Positions 6,530 to 14,281 of a DNA stretch of 64,000 nucleotides are shown in pieces; position 1 is the stretch's first letter; each line of letters begins with the position of its first letter. Origin of the DNA: Rhodothermia bacterium (GTDB lineage: Bacteria; Bacteroidota; Rhodothermia; Rhodothermales; JAAAOL01); contig JAUIDY010000010.1 in assembly GCA_030428385.1 (NCBI GenBank), forward strand, positions 1 through 64,000, given 5' to 3'. A program made the position numbers and the translations under genes. Under the pieces are notes generated by a model. That model made no database searches. It saw only the letters and a program-made list of their open reading frames with translations, and was not told the origin of the DNA.

Positions 6530-7861
6530 TTACTCCTGGGTAAGCAACGCTTCGATGGCTTCCAGCGCACGCGGGTCGCCGCTTTGTCCGAGCCAGAAGA
6601 TGGCATCCTTCCGAACACTGGGGCTTGGATGTGTCTTCGAGATCTCAACCAGCGCCTCGATGCCTTCGCCATCATCCAACTGCGACAACGCAAAAACCGC
6701 CTGCTTCTGCACCTCGGTGGATTCGTCGTTTTCCACCAGATCGCCGAGCGCCTCCACCGCCCGCTCCGAGGCAATCTGTCCCAGCCAGAAAATGGCGTTC
6801 TCTCGGGTATCCGTGCTTCGGTGGTTACGGGCTATCTGAATCAGGCGTGTGACTGCCTCGTCGGTCTCCAACTGCGACAGCGCAAAGACTGCTTTTTCCC
6901 GTATGTCTTCGTTGGGGTCGTTGAGCGCCAATGCCTCCAGCACATCCACAGCTTCTTCCTCATCGCGCTGCCCGATCCAGAAAACGGCTTGCTCGCGCAC
7001 GTCCAAGTCATCAGCGTCGTTCGCCAGTTCCACCAGGGTGTCAAATGCCTGGGCGATGTCCGCCTGACTCAGTCCGAACACCGCGCTCTCGCGGACGTCG
7101 CCGGAGCGGTCGGTGCGGGCGGTTTGTTCGAGTAGCGCCACCGCGTCGGGGTCGTGCTGAAGACCCAGCCACATCGACGTCGCCTCACGGACATCATTCG
7201 CTGCGTCGCTTTGCAACACCGAGCGCATAAACGGCACGACCTGCGCAGGCATCTGGTGCACGCCCACGGCGGCGACCAGATGCTCCTTGGTATCATTCGT
7301 TGGCGCATGCGCGGCAAACCGTTCGGCGAGCCATTTGATGCTCGCGGCATCACCGGCACTCCCCAGCCAATAGATCGGCGCGGCATCCAGGTCAAACGAA
7401 AGCTCTACGTTCCCGATCATCACCTCTTCTACTTCGTTTGGGTTCGTTGACGAATAGCGGAGCATGATCGCCACGTCTTTATCTACCACAGGCCCGCCGT
7501 CGTTCGAAGACCACCGCATGGACCGTCCGCGTCTCTCGTTGCCATCGCTGTCCATGGCGGCCCGCCCCGCCAACACATCTTCGAGCGAAGGCCCTCGTCG
7601 TCCCCGCTGTTGCCCGAAGGTGCTGTAGCTGTGCCCGACAAACAACGTGTTGAGTTCCTTCATCTGGCGGGCAATGGCATATCCCACCCAGAAGCTACGT
7701 TCGCCACTCGCTTGTTCGAATGCCCAATCCATACGGCTATCAAATGATGCCGTGGCATCGGGATGATGAAGTATACTTTGGCTGTGGGCTATGGTTGCCA
7801 TTCCGAAGGCAATAAGTACCACGAGAAGTGACGTTAGGGGGTATGACTTAATGTTTTGCAT
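6530..7861 (-). CDS. Exported HEAT-repeat protein (second of the pair)
   Basis: A 443-residue protein with a signal peptide (hydrophobic core SLLVVLIAFGMATIA, probable cleavage after SQ near 28). A non-repeat N-terminal domain of about 140 residues is followed by about nine HEAT units of roughly 31 residues. The units alternate between two signatures, REKAVFALSQL and RENAIFWLGQI, so the real period is two units (about 62 residues). It is last in a row of sigma factor, anti-sigma factor, HEAT, HEAT, with 87 bases separating it from the previous HEAT gene. A periplasmic scaffold or sensor role tied to the sigma factor is inference. No catalytic motif is seen. Confidence 0.88.
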   Translation of the reverse strand: MQNIKSYPLTSLLVVLIAFGMATIAHSQSILHHPDATASFDSRMDWAFEQASGERSFWVGYAIARQMKELNTLFVGHSYSTFGQQRGRRGPSLEDVLAGRAAMDSDGNERRGRSMRWSSNDGGPVVDKDVAIMLRYSSTNPNEVEEVMIGNVELSFDLDAAPIYWLGSAGDAASIKWLAERFAAHAPTNDTKEHLVAAVGVHQMPAQVVPFMRSVLQSDAANDVREATSMWLGLQHDPDAVALLEQTARTDRSGDVRESAVFGLSQADIAQAFDTLVELANDADDLDVREQAVFWIGQRDEEEAVDVLEALALNDPNEDIREKAVFALSQLETDEAVTRLIQIARNHRSTDTRENAIFWLGQIASERAVEALGDLVENDESTEVQKQAVFALSQLDDGEGIEALVEISKTHPSPSVRKDAIFWLGQSGDPRALEAIEALLTQE

Positions 7862-7948
7862 GATTTTCTCGGCTAGATATTCCCTTTCAAGCTTGCGGGT
7901 TCACTGTCCAAAGCTTTCGCTTCAATAACGCTCTGCTATTCACACTCC

Positions 7949-9214
7949 TTACTGTCCCTGCACGATGTCGATCAGGGCCTGGCGGGCGCGGGCGTCATCG
8001 CTTTGCCCCAACCAGAACACGGCGTCTTTGCGGACCTGACTGTTGGGATGCGTTTTCGCTAAGTCGATCAACTTGGGCACCCCAATGTCGTCATCCAACT
8101 GGGAGTAGGTGAAGATGATTTGCTTCTGGATCTCGACTTCATCCTCTTCGGCCATGAGGCGCTCTAGCATGGGCAACACGTCCTCGTCGCCTTCCTGTCC
8201 GATCCAGAAAATGGCGTCTTTGCGTACCGCCAACTGTGGGTGCGTACGGGCATAGTCGGCCAGCACATCCAACCCTTCGTCGCCTACCTGCGCCAGAGAA
8301 AAGACCACCTTCTTGATCGTCTCCACATCGTTGGAATCCTGCCCAATGGCTTCCAGGGCCTCTACCGCGCCGGGGCCTCCTTCCTGCCCGATCCAGAAGA
8401 TGGCGTCGTGACGCACTTCTTCCTCTTCGTGCGTACGGGCGATCTGAATGAGGGGCGTAATGCCAATCTCATCGGACAGTTGCGCAAGAGCAAAGACCAC
8501 TTGTTTTTGAATCTCCACGCTGCGGTCGGTGCGGGCAATATCCTGGAGGGTTGCCACCACGTCGGAGCCGCCTTCTTGCCCAATCCAGAAGATGGCGTCT
8601 TTGCGAACCTGCACGTCGTCATCATTGCGAGCGATAGTCTCTAAATGGGCCATCGCTTCAGGCACGTCGAACTGCGAGAGTACGTAGACGATCTTCTTCT
8701 TGTACGTCGGGCTGTCGGTGCGCTCGTAAAAAGCCATCACACTCGCAAGGGCACTTTCATCGCCCATCTGCCACAGGGCATCGAGGGCGGCGAGGCGCAC
8801 TTCTTCATCGTCGTTCTGCTGCAAATCGCGCACGAAGTCGCGGTATTCGGGTTTGCCGTCGCGGGCGAGGCGCTGTGCCAGACGGACGAGGTTCGAATGG
8901 GCATCGTCGGACCACCGGCTGCCATTGTGCTCCTCCACAAATTCCCGGTAGCATTCGAACGTGCGTTCATCCGTGGCACCACGTTGCTCCTGGACATGGC
9001 AAATCCAGTAGGTCGCATCGTCTTCCCAGGGGCTGTCTCGGTAGTCGCGCAGCACGGTCCGCAGGGCCTGAAGCGCGGCATCCCAGTTTTCATCGAGGAC
9101 CAGGCCATAGGCTTCCTGGTAAGCATCGCTTGCGCTATCCTGGGCCTGCACATCGGTAGCAAGCACAAGGCCAACACAGGCCAGCAGGGCAAGGAAAAAA
9201 AGTGACTTTTTCAT
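7949..9214 (-). CDS. Exported HEAT-repeat protein with TPR-like N-terminus (first of the pair)
   Basis: A 421-residue protein with a clear signal peptide starting at the ATG at 9214 (MKKSLFFLALLACVGLVLA, cleavage near VQA-Q). An N-terminal TPR-like segment (about residues 27-110) is followed by HEAT units that alternate VRKDAIFWIGQ and IQKQVVFALAQL every 31 residues to the C-terminus. A GTG at 9235 overlaps the upstream anti-sigma stop as GTGA and would add seven residues. Coupled initiation there is possible, but the signal peptide favours the ATG. It is transcribed with the sigma and anti-sigma genes. The repeat signature is nearly the same as in the downstream gene, so the two are paralogues. 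Confidence 0.88.
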   Translation of the reverse strand: MKKSLFFLALLACVGLVLATDVQAQDSASDAYQEAYGLVLDENWDAALQALRTVLRDYRDSPWEDDATYWICHVQEQRGATDERTFECYREFVEEHNGSRWSDDAHSNLVRLAQRLARDGKPEYRDFVRDLQQNDDEEVRLAALDALWQMGDESALASVMAFYERTDSPTYKKKIVYVLSQFDVPEAMAHLETIARNDDDVQVRKDAIFWIGQEGGSDVVATLQDIARTDRSVEIQKQVVFALAQLSDEIGITPLIQIARTHEEEEVRHDAIFWIGQEGGPGAVEALEAIGQDSNDVETIKKVVFSLAQVGDEGLDVLADYARTHPQLAVRKDAIFWIGQEGDEDVLPMLERLMAEEDEVEIQKQIIFTYSQLDDDIGVPKLIDLAKTHPNSQVRKDAVFWLGQSDDARARQALIDIVQGQ

Positions 9215-9231
9215 GAGAGGTATCGGGTATA

Positions 9232-10089
9232 TCACAGCGGGGCCTGGCCCGTGCGGGGCACGGTGCGGTCGGCACGCTGATCGGTCAGTTGCATTTCGGT
9301 GAGGTTTATCTTGAGCAAGAGCGCCTGTTGATCTACCGAGCTTTGTACCTGCTCGATGGCGGGCACATCGGCCTGTGCTTCCAGCGCCGCGATTTCCTGA
9401 AGGATGCGTTCGAGTTCGGTGACGAGCTGCGTCAGCCGCTGCTGATCGGCCGCTCCGAGGTCCCGCTTGAGGGCATCGGCTTCTTCCACCAGCGTTCGCG
9501 CCACCGCCTGCTTGCGCGGCAGGTTGAGCCCTTCGGCGGTTTCCTGGGCCGGGTCGAAGTTAACCAGCCCCAGCAGGAGTACCTTGGACCGCCGCATATA
9601 CTGCTGGGCCCGCACCTCCACCGACGCCGGTTGCAGCGTCTCTGGCGTCAGTCGATCAAGCGGTGCGACTTGTTGCTGATCATCGGCGATAGGCGGTGCT
9701 TCGGGCCGGGCAAACAGCAACCAGCCAATCCCAATGCCAATGGCAAGCAACAACGCCGCCAGCACGCTGCTGCGCAGGTGAAACGGCATGTTCCGCCGAA
9801 CGGCGGCCCGGTCAGCACGCGGTTGTGGTTGCGGGGAGGCATCGTTCGCCATGCGTGTGATCAGGCGCTCGTGGTACGTGTCCCAATAACCTTCAGACAG
9901 CACAGGTCGGTGTGTTTCAGCCGTCACCTGAAGTGTTGCCTGAAGTGATTGCCATTCCTTCGCACAGATCGCACAGGTACCCACGTGTTCGACCAGCGCG
10001 TCGCGTTCGGCGTCGGTTGGCTCGCCAAACAACACCTCAGCCATCAACGCCTGTATGGATTCACTCGGTGATGTATTGCACCCTTTCAT
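9232..10089 (-). CDS. Membrane-anchored anti-sigma factor (zinc-finger ZAS type)
   Basis: A 285-residue protein. The N-terminal 50 residues carry the HxxxCxxC anti-sigma zinc motif (H35, C39, C42 in HVGTCAIC), expected to hold the ECF sigma factor. One membrane segment follows near residues 103-122 (LAALLLAIGIGIGWLLF), then a helical periplasmic domain rich in Q, A and E that is likely a coiled coil. Its start overlaps the sigma-factor stop by four bases (ATGA at 10086-10089). This is the standard sigma/anti-sigma pair. The signal sensed is unknown, but the HEAT proteins encoded just downstream are candidates for linked sensing or output. Confidence 0.9.
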   Translation of the reverse strand: MKGCNTSPSESIQALMAEVLFGEPTDAERDALVEHVGTCAICAKEWQSLQATLQVTAETHRPVLSEGYWDTYHERLITRMANDASPQPQPRADRAAVRRNMPFHLRSSVLAALLLAIGIGIGWLLFARPEAPPIADDQQQVAPLDRLTPETLQPASVEVRAQQYMRRSKVLLLGLVNFDPAQETAEGLNLPRKQAVARTLVEEADALKRDLGAADQQRLTQLVTELERILQEIAALEAQADVPAIEQVQSSVDQQALLLKINLTEMQLTDQRADRTVPRTGQAPL

Positions 10090-10700
10090 CGGTTCGTCCC
10101 TTTTTTTTCCGGGTTCGGAAGCCCCAACTCTTCGCGGTAAAACGACAGTGCATCACGCAGCTTTTGCACTGCACGGAAGAGCAAGGACTTAACGGTTCCT
10201 TCGGCCACGTCCATCAGACCCGCGACTTCTTTGACGGACAGGTCCTGAAAGTGCCGCAGCACAAACGCGGTTCGCTCGCGGGGCGAGAGTTTGCGCAAAG
10301 CGGCGTTTACATGCTGCCGCCGGATGTCGGCTTCTACTTCTTGTCCGGGCGCGCTATCGCGGGTGCCCATCAGGCTGAAGTCGTCCCACAGTTGCCGAAA
10401 GCGCAGGGCTTTTTTGCGCCGCCGGTTGAGGTAGGTGTTCACCGTGATCCGGTAGAGCCAACTATACGCCGATGCCTCCCCGCGAAAGGCATCGAGCGCC
10501 TTGTAGGCTTTGATAAATACTTCCTGTGACAGATCTTCGGCATCGTGGTGCTGACCCGTCAGGTCGAGCGCCAGGTAATACACCGCCCGCTGGTTCGCCT
10601 CGACGAGGCTGCGGAACGCCGCGTCGCGGGAGGCGGGCGCGGGCGTCTCGTCAAAAGCGTGCGGGGTGATGGTGGTCACAGGGGTGTCGGTCAACAACAT
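10086..10700 (-). CDS. ECF-type RNA polymerase sigma factor
   Basis: A 204-residue sigma-70 family protein with the two-domain ECF plan. Region 2 (about residues 25-95) includes DAEDLSQEVFIKAYKALD and SWLYRITVNTYLNRRR. Region 4 (about 130-185) includes LSPRERTAFVLRHFQ and a helix-turn-helix in LSVKEVAGLMDVAEGTVKS. Region 3 is absent, as expected. It heads the sigma/anti-sigma/HEAT/HEAT operon. A probable ECF promoter lies just upstream (10722-10754), which would make the operon autoregulated. The start at 10700 places region 2 at the usual distance from the N-terminus. Confidence 0.93.
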   Translation of the reverse strand: MLLTDTPVTTITPHAFDETPAPASRDAAFRSLVEANQRAVYYLALDLTGQHHDAEDLSQEVFIKAYKALDAFRGEASAYSWLYRITVNTYLNRRRKKALRFRQLWDDFSLMGTRDSAPGQEVEADIRRQHVNAALRKLSPRERTAFVLRHFQDLSVKEVAGLMDVAEGTVKSLLFRAVQKLRDALSFYREELGLPNPEKKGTNR

Positions 10701-10721
10701 AGGCTTCTCGCTTGCTCACCC

Positions 10722-10754
10722 ATAAAGACAGCGGGGCGGCGCCGGGGGTTTACA
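10722..10754 (-). promoter_or_regulatory. Candidate ECF-type promoter of the sigma/anti-sigma/HEAT operon
   Basis: On the minus strand a -35-like TGTAAAC (10754-10748) and a -10-like CTGTCTTTA (10731-10723) are separated by about 16 bases, with the sigma-factor ATG 22 bases beyond. Autoregulated ECF promoters commonly pair a TGTAAC-type -35 with a GTC-containing -10. The match is by eye. Confidence 0.45.
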
Positions 10755-11014: not shown

Positions 11015-13744
11015 TTACCGGCTCAGCCAGTACGTCAGCTTCAGCACGAAGATATTATCAGGCTTGGAATCAACGAGGGTGCCGAGGTTGTCGTTGAATT
11101 GAAAAGTGCCGACGTTTTCGAACGCATCCCGGGTCTGTGTCCACACGAGGTAGAACGTGGATCCCGGACGGAATTCCCACCGCAGCACCGCAGTGCCACG
11201 CAGCGACTTAAAGTTGAAGTCAGGCTCTCCAAACGTAAAGGTCTCGGCCTCGCCATCGCCATCAGGATCGACCGTGTATTCATCCGATTCCTCGTTGAAC
11301 GAAACCGTGCCTACGTCCTGTCCAAACACGTTAAAGTCGTAGGTATTGGGCGTGGCGAGTTCCTTAAAGTCGAAGTAGTCGCCTGCCGAGATCAACGGCT
11401 GGGCAAACAGTTGAAGGCTCATCTCAGGCGTAAACGTCCAGTTCAGCCGAATGTCCGTTGAGAATGTCGTCTGGTCGATGGAGCCGAACACATAGCGATT
11501 GCCAAACGTGGCTGTGGCAAATGGATCCTCAAATTGGCCGACGTACTGAGCCTTCCCCTGCCGGAACGTGAGACCTGGTTCCACCGAAAGGGTCATGTTC
11601 GGGATAGGCCGCCACTCGGCCTCCACATCAATCCCTCGCCGATTGTTGCCCTCTTCGTCGGCAAACTGAAAGCCTTCAAATTCCCACACCAGCTTTTTCC
11701 GGTTGTCGGTTTCAAATCCGAAAAAGGCCGCATACCCTGCCGGGTTGGTCATCATGGGGCCGCCACGCGTCGAGCGAATGTCTTTGTTACGTGCATTTAA
11801 CTCCCCTCCCACAAACAAGAACATGTAGTTTTTGAGTTGCATCCATCCGTTCGACCACACACCCAACGCCGTCCGGTTGCCTGCAAAGTCGTAGCTGCGG
11901 TAGTGCGATGAATTCCACCGCGCGCGCCGGTAGATGCCTCTGGGCTCGGTCCACTGATACCCCACCACCGCATGGGCATTGATGATGTCCGTGCGCCACA
12001 TGAACCCGGCATCGTTGAGTTCAAAACCGGGGGAAATAAAGCCAACCGCTGCGTTCGTGTAGAACTTCCCACTCTGTTTGTTGAGCATAAACCGCCCCGC
12101 TGTTCCGGTCAGTGACGTGGCATCCGCATCCACGGATACATGGTCCGCATCGGGGCGTTGGAAATAATGCAATGAACTTCGCTGCAGGCTCTCGATCCGC
12201 TCGGCAGTACCATTTACCTGCGAGAGCCCCAACCAACCCGTGACGACCCACATGCGGTCCCGGTCGAGGAACGTCCAGCCATCAATCCCGCCCACGTACG
12301 CGCTTTCGTTTAACTGCGGCACCAGCCGGTCATCGTCGCCAAAGCTGCGAATCGTGGTCGTGGACATTCCCCCGATGGCACGGAATCCTTCGTCAAACTC
12401 GCGCTGTGCCCGAACGACCCCGTAGTAGGTCAGCGGTTCAACTTCGGCTGCAAACTCCTCTCCGTTGAACAAAACATCCGCTTCTCCCCGCCCCGTAATG
12501 GCCTGCACCGTACCGACATTCCATCCGTCACCCACTTTGCCGGTCAGTTTTGCGGCGCCTAGAATAGGCACGCCGTCCGGGACATCGGCGTAGTCGTGGT
12601 CAGGCAAACCGCCCTGCGGGGCCCGCCCGATGCGACGGGTGTAGAAAAAGTCGGGGTTTCCAAAATTAAAACCCCAGTTGCTGTTCGACCCACCCATTCC
12701 AAAATTAAAGATGGACGCCCCCTCGATAAAGAATGGGCGTTTTTCTGGGAAGAAGGTTTCCACATCGCTCAGGTTGACCACCGCGGGATCCACTTCCACC
12801 TGCCCAAAATCAGGATTTACGGTGCCATTCAGCGTAAGGTTTGGTGTGAGCCCCACTTTAAAGTCGGCACCAAAATCGGGCGCATACGTCGAGCCGTCGT
12901 TAAACGGATCGCCATCGGCATGGTCCGTAAACGCCGCCTTTCCTGTCACATAGGGCGTAACCTCGATCTGCCGAGGAGGCGTTATTTCCTCGATGCCCAC
13001 CATATCCGCAAACCGGGACACAAATCCGCTTTCAGCACGCGGTGTCATCACATAAAACACCCGTTCGTTGCGCCGGGCGATATAACGGCTAAAGTTTACC
13101 CCCCACACATACGCATCCTCTGCTTTAAACCGAAGCTGCGAATACGGAATCCGCATTTCTACCGACCACCCCTGCTCATGAATATGGGCTTTTCCTTGCC
13201 ATACCCCATCCCACGAATCATCGTCCCAGTTGTCATTAAAGAGAACACCGTCAGAAAGTGTACCTGCCGCGTTTACGCTAAAATAAAATCCCGTCCGACG
13301 ATCGTAGTAGGGATCCACACTGAAGATGAATCGGTCTGCATTCAGGTATGCATCACGCCGTCCCAAGCGCGCCACAATAGAGTCTGGTGCGGCATCGTAG
13401 AGTTGTGCCCCGATATAAATCGCTTCGTTGTCGTAAATCACCTGCACGGTGGTGCGTTCGGTAGCTGGATCGCCTTCGTCGGGGTCGCGCTGGGTGAACT
13501 GGTCGATGAAGGGCGCTTGCTGCCATGCCAAGTCATCCAATACGCCATCCAGGGAAACGTCTGCTTCCACCCGCATGGCTTCTACGCGTCGAGCAGGCCC
13601 CACCTTATCGTCCTCCCGTGCGTTGTTGTCGGCGCGGGGGTTTGCCAAGGTCAAAGGAACGGCTTCTTGTGCATAGAGCCTAGGTGAGGCACTGAAAACA
13701 AGCAGCAATGACAAACAGATGGAGAGGGCTCGTAGCGTTTGCAT
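11015..13744 (-). CDS. DUF5916 outer-membrane protein with CBM9-like N-terminal domain
   Basis: A 909-residue exported protein. After a signal peptide (LSICLSLLLVFSASPRLYA) comes a family 9 carbohydrate-binding-like domain (about residues 55-240: VSLDGVLDDLAW, IYIGAQLYD, SVEMRIPYSQLRF). A long region rich in alternating aromatic strands follows and ends in a C-terminal aromatic/arginine beta-signal (VLKLTYWLSR), consistent with an outer-membrane barrel. Proteins of this family are common in Bacteroidota and Gemmatimonadota; their substrate is unproven. The ATG at 13744 is preferred over the GTG two codons upstream. The gene is alone, with a long upstream gap facing the divergent tonB. Confidence 0.85.
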   Translation of the reverse strand: MQTLRALSICLSLLLVFSASPRLYAQEAVPLTLANPRADNNAREDDKVGPARRVEAMRVEADVSLDGVLDDLAWQQAPFIDQFTQRDPDEGDPATERTTVQVIYDNEAIYIGAQLYDAAPDSIVARLGRRDAYLNADRFIFSVDPYYDRRTGFYFSVNAAGTLSDGVLFNDNWDDDSWDGVWQGKAHIHEQGWSVEMRIPYSQLRFKAEDAYVWGVNFSRYIARRNERVFYVMTPRAESGFVSRFADMVGIEEITPPRQIEVTPYVTGKAAFTDHADGDPFNDGSTYAPDFGADFKVGLTPNLTLNGTVNPDFGQVEVDPAVVNLSDVETFFPEKRPFFIEGASIFNFGMGGSNSNWGFNFGNPDFFYTRRIGRAPQGGLPDHDYADVPDGVPILGAAKLTGKVGDGWNVGTVQAITGRGEADVLFNGEEFAAEVEPLTYYGVVRAQREFDEGFRAIGGMSTTTIRSFGDDDRLVPQLNESAYVGGIDGWTFLDRDRMWVVTGWLGLSQVNGTAERIESLQRSSLHYFQRPDADHVSVDADATSLTGTAGRFMLNKQSGKFYTNAAVGFISPGFELNDAGFMWRTDIINAHAVVGYQWTEPRGIYRRARWNSSHYRSYDFAGNRTALGVWSNGWMQLKNYMFLFVGGELNARNKDIRSTRGGPMMTNPAGYAAFFGFETDNRKKLVWEFEGFQFADEEGNNRRGIDVEAEWRPIPNMTLSVEPGLTFRQGKAQYVGQFEDPFATATFGNRYVFGSIDQTTFSTDIRLNWTFTPEMSLQLFAQPLISAGDYFDFKELATPNTYDFNVFGQDVGTVSFNEESDEYTVDPDGDGEAETFTFGEPDFNFKSLRGTAVLRWEFRPGSTFYLVWTQTRDAFENVGTFQFNDNLGTLVDSKPDNIFVLKLTYWLSR

Positions 13745-14281
13745 GGTCACAACGTTGCTCGCAATAGAGGGTGAGAAGGTGATGCCGAGGAAGGCTGTGG
13801 CCTCCAGAAAAGAAGGGAGGACAGAACGGGTGCTAGTATCATAGCATACCTGCCCTACGGGACGATTTTAGCGAAGATGCACGAGGTGCTAATTTTTTAT
13901 CATTTTATTTTTTTTCGCCCGGAAGCACCTCCAGGACCGCAAAACGAACGTGTAATCCGCTGGCTGTACCGAACCCGTGTCGCATCTATCTCAATAGACA
14001 CGTTTCCCCCTCTATTCGTTGACGCTGGCCCCTTCTCTTTTTAAAGAGAGTAACATTCGGTGGCCTGTTCAGGGGTTGTCCGCCCCCTCCGGTAGTCGCG
14101 GTCACTTCCGAGGGACCTCGCCCACTTATTCGTCTCGACGCCTTCCTATTACCCCCCCGGCGGAGTTGTCTCTTTAACTTTTGAAAATGTGTGGGCTGCA
14201 TCTTTGGAGCACCGTTTCCGTAGTTCAACCCTCGCTTGCAGTAAGACTTCACCAACCCGACCACTACCGCCATGCTTTGCC
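13745..14281. other. Long intergenic region between divergent genes
   Basis: About 540 bases without a convincing gene. It must hold the promoters of the DUF5916 gene (minus) and tonB (plus). Visible items are an AT-rich patch near 13890-13916, a TATGAT-like hexamer on the minus strand near 13840 and a perfect palindrome TCTCTTTTTAAAGAGA at 14035-14050. No riboswitch or tRNA was recognised. The short open frames here read as non-coding. Confidence 0.5.

Follow-up and report, generated by a model that had tools for sequence, protein, structure and literature searches.

The closest described counterpart of the locus considered here is the RpoE-RseA-RseB system of Escherichia coli, in which an extracytoplasmic function (ECF) sigma factor, a membrane anti-sigma factor and a periplasmic partner are encoded in one autoregulated operon. 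There, DegS cleavage takes place only once RseB, bound to the periplasmic domain of RseA, has been displaced (PMC8103513). A comparable arrangement is predicted for a four-gene cassette in a 64,000-nucleotide stretch of DNA from a Rhodothermia bacterium (the window; contig JAUIDY010000010.1, positions 1 to 64,000). The minus-strand cassette begins with the gene of an ECF sigma factor, continues with that of a membrane anti-sigma factor bearing a zinc finger (ASF) and ends with those of two HEAT-repeat proteins, HEAT-A and HEAT-B, both probably exported as judged from their hydrophobic N-termini. The module is real and conserved, and by comparison of loci its core consists of the sigma factor, the ASF and the TPR-HEAT protein. 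We give an even chance to the reading in which HEAT-A would be the periplasmic partner and sensor arm of the ASF, with a role like that of RseB, in an autoregulated operon. HEAT-A is built of TPR and HEAT repeats rather than the RseB fold, and the ASF differs from RseA in its zinc-finger N-domain, its four-helix periplasmic domain (ASF-C) and its aliphatic C-terminus.

Other described proteins resemble parts of the cassette. Class I zinc-binding anti-sigma (ZAS) proteins of the RsiW type share the H-x3-C-x2-C N-domain of the ASF, the predicted fold of which matches RsiW in structure 5wuq, but the periplasmic part and the partner differ. Fusions of zf-HC2 with HEAT repeats in the window's own phylum likewise bring together an ECF sigma factor, a zf-HC2 anti-sigma factor and HEAT repeats beyond the membrane; however, the repeats are carried by the ASF itself, ASF-C is absent and locus maps show no separate TPR-HEAT neighbor. 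The artificial alphaRep binders form a regular HEAT superhelix as HEAT-A is predicted to do, which in alphaRep is a binding surface, whereas HEAT-A is natural and probably exported, begins with a TPR-like domain and alternates between types of unit. No description of such a cassette was found in the literature searched, and it may have an entry in the main ECF re-classification.

A functional link within the cassette is argued for by two domains encoded side by side: ASF-C (9286-9615, minus strand), delimited by an alignment of 29 loci and the helices of an AlphaFold2 (AF2) model, and HAN, the TPR-like N-terminal domain of HEAT-A (amino acids 30-130; 8846-9148, minus strand), recognized as the neighbor of ASF-C and by reverse search. 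Distinct loci with ASF-C number 77, from the window's own phylum, KSB1 and Gemmatimonadota (three loci), and the next gene encodes HAN in 74 of them; related loci among the 77 are non-independent events. These loci were collected in searches with the ASF or ASF-C, for which adjacency was no criterion, except for L030-L036, which were found via HEAT-A. Two of the three loci without HAN (L018 and L175) are cut by contig ends, and the real exception (L067/L093) has a weak ASF-C match (5e-5). Because co-occurrence is nearly perfect, a functional link is strongly favored. The preliminary description had suggested surveying HEAT genes beside ECF/ZAS pairs and would have dropped the link if the HEAT genes were transcribed separately and did not co-occur with the sigma factor elsewhere; the survey contradicts the second of these conditions. 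It likewise speaks against adjacency by chance or slow rearrangement, with no functional link at all, which we regard as most improbable: the one same-family genome searched (83% complete) contains no ASF match, so that the cassette is patchy, but gene order is conserved across distant phyla, together with a common promoter.

Searches from either side of the pair gave the same picture. An ASF match at E<=0.001 was found in 23 of 99 order-level genomes, and next to the strongest of these matches HEAT-A is encoded wherever the contig continues (in G016, contig C314 ends within the ASF). The reverse search of the 99 relatives with HAN returned 17 strong hits (E<=1.2e-20; next best 7e-9), comprising 15 cassettes, one hit at a contig edge and one in G010, where the HAN gene is preceded by a sigma gene and an ASF that has another N-domain and a C-region resembling ASF-C by eye. 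Searching named genomes with HEAT-A yielded one Rhodothermales, four KSB1 and two Gemmatimonadota loci, which keep the order sigma, ASF, HEAT where the contig shows these genes. The ASF profile matched 156 of 296 genomes of the phylum at E<=1e-5, although among the matches listed 15 reach the end of the profile and the rest cover the zinc-finger part only, while ASF-C was detected at E<=0.001 in 47 of 82 genomes of the KSB1-type phylum. The cassette is spread over the order of the window and further families of the same phylum, as well as KSB1 and Gemmatimonadota. One Gemmatimonadota locus (L036) has retained ASF-C and HAN-HEAT although the N-domain of its ASF is of a type other than zf-HC2; on sequence comparison, the ASF-C/HAN pairing persists through exchange of the sigma-binding domain. 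Behind this cassette lies a frame resembling an M48-type lipoprotein peptidase by eye (L036:7772-9232). Upstream of another cassette (L048:607-4250) are a BlaI-like gene, also recognized by eye, and frames of 722 and 341 amino acids with HEAT units, the first of which might be guessed, from the neighboring gene only, to be a BlaR1-type receptor.

HEAT repeats also occur within ASFs. In a scan of 34 ASF frames classed as free of ASF-C, which comprised all ASF N-domain frames of the author-selected loci L093-L123, L050 and L052 and included the weak L093, HEAT_2 was present in the same protein in 22 and zf-HC2 in 29; a first test of fused HEAT had used loci picked by open reading frame length. 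Examples are L050:5493-6578 and L102:4025-4999. The ASF-fused HEAT_2 is a second architecture of the same idea within the phylum. DUF4097 is encoded in 14 of 27 genes next to ASFs taken as lacking ASF-C. Zinc-finger anti-sigma domains also head frames of 884 and 908 amino acids (L097:4481-7132 and L099:5506-8229), and two members of the 34-frame scan carry carboxypeptidase-regulatory and YfbK/von Willebrand domains, with which the L097 sequence is consistent. A different joining is seen in L130:1495-2706 (G365), where a long linker separates an ASF N-domain from a TPR-like stretch (HAN 4e-4) of the same protein, possibly a natural fusion of both partners.

On a tree of 117 sigma factors, the combination of ASF-C and HAN requires 9 changes, compared with 36.6 for shuffled labels, and at least 4 of the 9 are forced by well-supported branches; the label is strongly clustered but does not form one clean clade. 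(L029, one of the rows labeled as without ASF-C, is truncated by its contig.) A family in which HEAT is fused to the ASF (f13) nests inside the ASF-C clade of the order, the enclosing 18-row fork being supported at 100/99, and therefore an ASF-HEAT fusion seems to have taken the place of the pair of ASF-C and HEAT-A in this family.

These observations bear on the alternative that the HEAT proteins are outputs only, serving as periplasmic scaffolds or chaperone-like binders that are produced once the sigma factor is free, belong to the operon because it is under sigma control and make no contact with the ASF, which we consider possible but on balance unlikely. The number of extra HEAT genes varies among cassettes, as would be expected of accessory outputs. 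Where about 0.9 kb or more of sequence is available beyond HEAT-A, 18 of 25 cassettes have another HEAT gene there. However, an output need not track one ASF domain as closely as HAN tracks ASF-C, nor persist, as HAN does in L036, where the ASF has another N-domain, and many ASFs that lack ASF-C carry fused HEAT repeats. The near one-to-one tie to ASF-C and the fusion of HEAT into related ASFs are the reasons for preferring a partner or sensor role for HEAT-A.

The ASF (9232-10089, minus strand; 285 amino acids) consists of an N-domain (amino acids 1-84), a likely transmembrane segment within amino acids 103-126, where a hydropathy peak begins at amino acid 109, and a periplasmic part (amino acids 157-275). 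The ZAS residues H35, C39 and C42 pointed out in the preliminary description are invariant across 17 aligned ASFs. The H-x3-C-x2-C motif in a helical N-domain places the protein among class I ZAS factors by sequence and fold, and it is predicted to bind zinc and inhibit its sigma factor; zf-HC2 scored 23.4 bits in the genome search (cut-off 22.2) and 20.5 bits, under the cut-off, in the protein scan. The N-domain resembles RsiW bound to SigW in 5wuq (Foldseek probability 0.99, target TM 0.71, E 0.54). A fold search of the ASF gave nothing at E<=0.001, and the periplasmic part retrieved generic helical bundles only. In the AF2 model (mean pLDDT of the whole ASF 76.9), ASF-C is folded, with middling confidence, into helices at amino acids 157-176, 190-210, 217-234 and 242-275. 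A Pfam scan of ASF-C found no family over its cut-off, PF07586 HXXSHH matching below it (amino acids 183-253, 25.3 bits, cut-off 30), and a plasmid search with the ASF as query returned no match.

Behind ASF-C follows a variable tail, and 60 of 76 ASFs with ASF-C close with V, I, L, M or F, as does that of the window (Leu285). The share of these residues at positions -2 to -12 is 4-22%, and they end 12 of 48 ASFs without ASF-C and 19 of 73 sigma factors; the difference between ASFs with and without ASF-C has a Fisher probability of 3e-9, with kinship among the sequences ignored. The aliphatic end is found in 27 of 32 ASF representatives under 45% identity and in 50 of 61 ASFs in which overlap with the following start codon cannot dictate the codon, and it is encoded by various Ile and Leu codons. 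A TPR groove or a PDZ domain could bind such a free aliphatic carboxyl end, and hydrophobic C-termini are known PDZ ligands. Because the last residue alone is conserved after a variable linker, and because a TPR domain is its near-obligate neighbor in three phyla, a transmembrane switch may be envisaged in which the TPR-HEAT protein would clamp the C-terminal carboxylate of the ASF and a ligand bound by the HEAT array would loosen the clamp and free the sigma factor. We put this forward tentatively, as a rather unlikely proposal. The same residue could instead be a tag for a PDZ-type periplasmic protease (DegS/DegP/Prc-like), with HEAT-A shielding or presenting it and control exerted through access of the protease. 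Confinement of the preference to the terminal residue suits such a tag; on the other hand, the tail tracks ASF-C and HAN rather than anti-sigma factors generally, and we judge this explanation quite unlikely.

HEAT-A (7949-9235, minus strand; 428 amino acids) matches HEAT_2 at 8.9e-52, and its amino acids 36-123 form a YbgF-type TPR region (52 bits), although the protein falls short of the YbgF/CpoB equivalog cut-offs (TIGR02795, 52.3 versus 90.1 bits; PRK10803, 41.6 versus 383 bits). In HEAT-B (6530-7861, minus strand; 443 amino acids; HEAT_2 1.4e-36), an N-terminal region of about amino acids 25-215 precedes the HEAT array. Tandem HEAT_2/HEAT_PBS units over cut-off, with an alpha superhelix predicted for HEAT-A, assign these proteins to the HEAT-repeat class. 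In the AF2 model of HEAT-A (mean pLDDT 89.5) the helical repeat runs without a break, and the best matches of the protein in the Protein Data Bank, by sequence and by fold, are alphaRep structures, which together support the regular superhelix that the preliminary description had proposed. The unit length of 31 residues given there is corrected by a computed period of 32 in both proteins, with lags of 64 and 127/128 outscoring lag 32, so that the paired unit is 64. The alternation of two unit types is clear in HEAT-A, where units of the same parity are 44% identical versus 24%, the best of 35 partitions of its seven units, and weaker in HEAT-B (40% versus 32%; 2 of 10 partitions of five units equally good). 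The IFWIGQ/VFALAQL signature of this alternation was rejected as a defining feature, since several other cassettes have a HEAT-A built of ALYALGN-type units and the array length varies; the signature is therefore not essential. A suspected absence of the HEAT array from many HAN proteins, based on a custom HEAT model that recognized no unit in 17 of 48 frames, was likewise discarded: Pfam detected HEAT_2 at E<=0.01 in 8 of 9 HAN proteins, with one just below cut-off, which means that the custom model undercounts. TPR_6 or YfiO was found in all 9 of these proteins, in some under the cut-off.

The sigma factor (10086-10700, minus strand; 204 amino acids) contains Sigma70_r2 at amino acids 32-98 (9.7e-19) and r4_2 at amino acids 132-181 (1.5e-16) in the Pfam protein scan, and scores 115.8 bits against TIGR02937 sigma70-ECF (cut-off 42.9). 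With regions 2 and 4 only, joined by a short linker, it belongs to the ECF (group IV) sigma factors. Further marks of this group are an anti-sigma gene alongside and an autoregulated promoter with AAC at -35 and a CGT-like -10 element (PMC8103513); the cassette has the adjoining gene and, in silico, a promoter of this form. The motif GYMAAC-N18-GTCY, in agreement with the AAC/CGT form, precedes the sigma gene in 41 of 71 cassette upstream regions, including that of the window, where the copy TGTAAAC-N18-GTCT (10754-10726, minus strand) ends 25 nt ahead of the sigma ATG. Across 200 dinucleotide shuffles of the 71 regions the motif had a mean of 0.135 and a maximum of 3; because it was derived from the same regions in which it was counted, more weight is given to the spacer scan from 12 to 24, in which a spacer of 18 gave 41 regions and every other spacer 0-2, and to its presence before 2 of 31 ECF sigma genes without a solid ASF-C. 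The sigma factor very probably drives its own operon, and the HEAT genes downstream of this predicted promoter would then be among its outputs. That the promoter would transcribe the whole operon is what the outputs-only alternative foresees. The preliminary description had named the HEAT proteins as either sensor or output; the partner or sensor role is preferred for HEAT-A, and the HEAT genes may be both.

Beyond the operon, permeases of the MacB/FtsX (ADOP-like) type are a lead as sigma targets. TGTAAAC-N18-GTCY occurs 5 times in the window's genome versus 3 for the control, and two of the genomic sites are followed, after 36 and 44 nt, by frames with MacB_PCD and FtsX domains (794 and 805 amino acids). 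Similar sites precede permease genes in L193, L203 (= L228), L227 (where the frame is interrupted), L260 and L261; those in L193, L227, L260 and L261 were recognized from sequence only. Both of these permeases of the window's genome and that of L228 reach 294-319 bits against TIGR03434 ADOP (cut-off 622), in matches of almost full length. The distance from site to first possible start is 27-66 nt, with a likelier start about 100-120 nt away in L193 and L203. Altogether, 7 of 57 sites inspected precede permease genes and 8 of 57 precede sigma genes. MacB_PCD is matched 110 times in the window's genome, for the most part twice per gene; assuming ~55 MacB genes, about 1 random site in 2,000 would be expected within 120 nt before such a gene. 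With the strict form of the motif, the 15 cassette genomes gave 17 hits (6 of them own promoters, with a seventh inferred at a contig end) versus 3 in the control, and the other 94 genomes gave 17 versus 14, G010 and G096 having a related sigma gene near the site. Many of the MacB_PCD matches of the window's genome (G000) fall in runs of neighboring ADOP-like permease frames of 800-900 amino acids, for example on contigs C42, C47, C50, C123 and C193. A variant site, GTCAAC-N18-GTCT (14023-13996, minus strand), situated 245 nt before a DUF5916 gene, was set aside because it is not above chance alone; the window holds 4 such variant sites versus about 1 expected. In L192, too, a DUF5916 gene is preceded by the promoter motif.

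In the preferred reading, HEAT-A would reside in the periplasm and bind the periplasmic domain of the ASF, its TPR groove perhaps gripping the free aliphatic C-terminus, while the long HEAT superhelix would act as a ligand-binding sensor arm. A signal, which might be an envelope component or a misfolded protein, would meet the HEAT arm and change the complex, whereupon the ASF would be inactivated, probably by proteolysis as for RseA. The freed sigma factor would then transcribe its own operon, HEAT genes included, and a few targets, maybe the MacB/FtsX (ADOP-like) permeases; HEAT-B and other accessory HEAT proteins would be co-regulated extra binding arms. Several findings weigh against this reading. 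Autoregulation fits HEAT proteins as outputs equally well, and 30 of the 71 upstream regions, many in KSB1-type cassettes, are without the motif. Permease sites in L260 and L261 sit in genomes without an ASF match. With the loose form of the motif, 14 genomes gave 51 hits, including 8-9 cassette promoters, versus 36 for the control, and a large regulon was rejected because the count beyond the operon is little above control. Finally, the mirror-tree partial correlation between ASF-C and HAN is 0.36 (66 sets), whereas sigma and HAN, which are not expected to touch, give 0.41; the method cannot discriminate here and was dropped as proof of contact.

At the locus itself, coordinates and Pfam and NCBIfam assignments for each of the four genes bear out the order of ECF sigma factor, anti-sigma factor and two HEAT proteins given in the preliminary description. 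Its statement that start/stop overlaps couple the first three genes stands for sigma and ASF, which overlap firmly by 4 nt; ASF and HEAT-A share a 4-nt overlap only if HEAT-A begins with the GTG at 9235, and an alternative start at the ATG at 9214 (MKKSLFF...), 21 nt further in, would leave a 17-nt gap after the ASF. The end of HEAT-A is separated from the HEAT-B start by 87 nt. A DUF2339 gene lies downstream of the cassette and the DUF5916 gene (11015-13750) upstream. Scans for terminators and sigma-70 promoters gave counts no higher than in shuffled sequence.

To our knowledge, neither the signal nor the outside receptor has been identified for the majority of ECF sigma factors. This cassette offers a candidate receptor, the ASF domain it would bind, the residue that may be gripped and a promoter that would report the output. 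If the proposed role of HEAT-A is true, a set of exported HEAT proteins so far named by their repeats alone would acquire a function. If the clamp on the ASF C-terminus is also true, ECF switches would have a modular outside receptor, in which the HEAT array would be the exchangeable specificity element.

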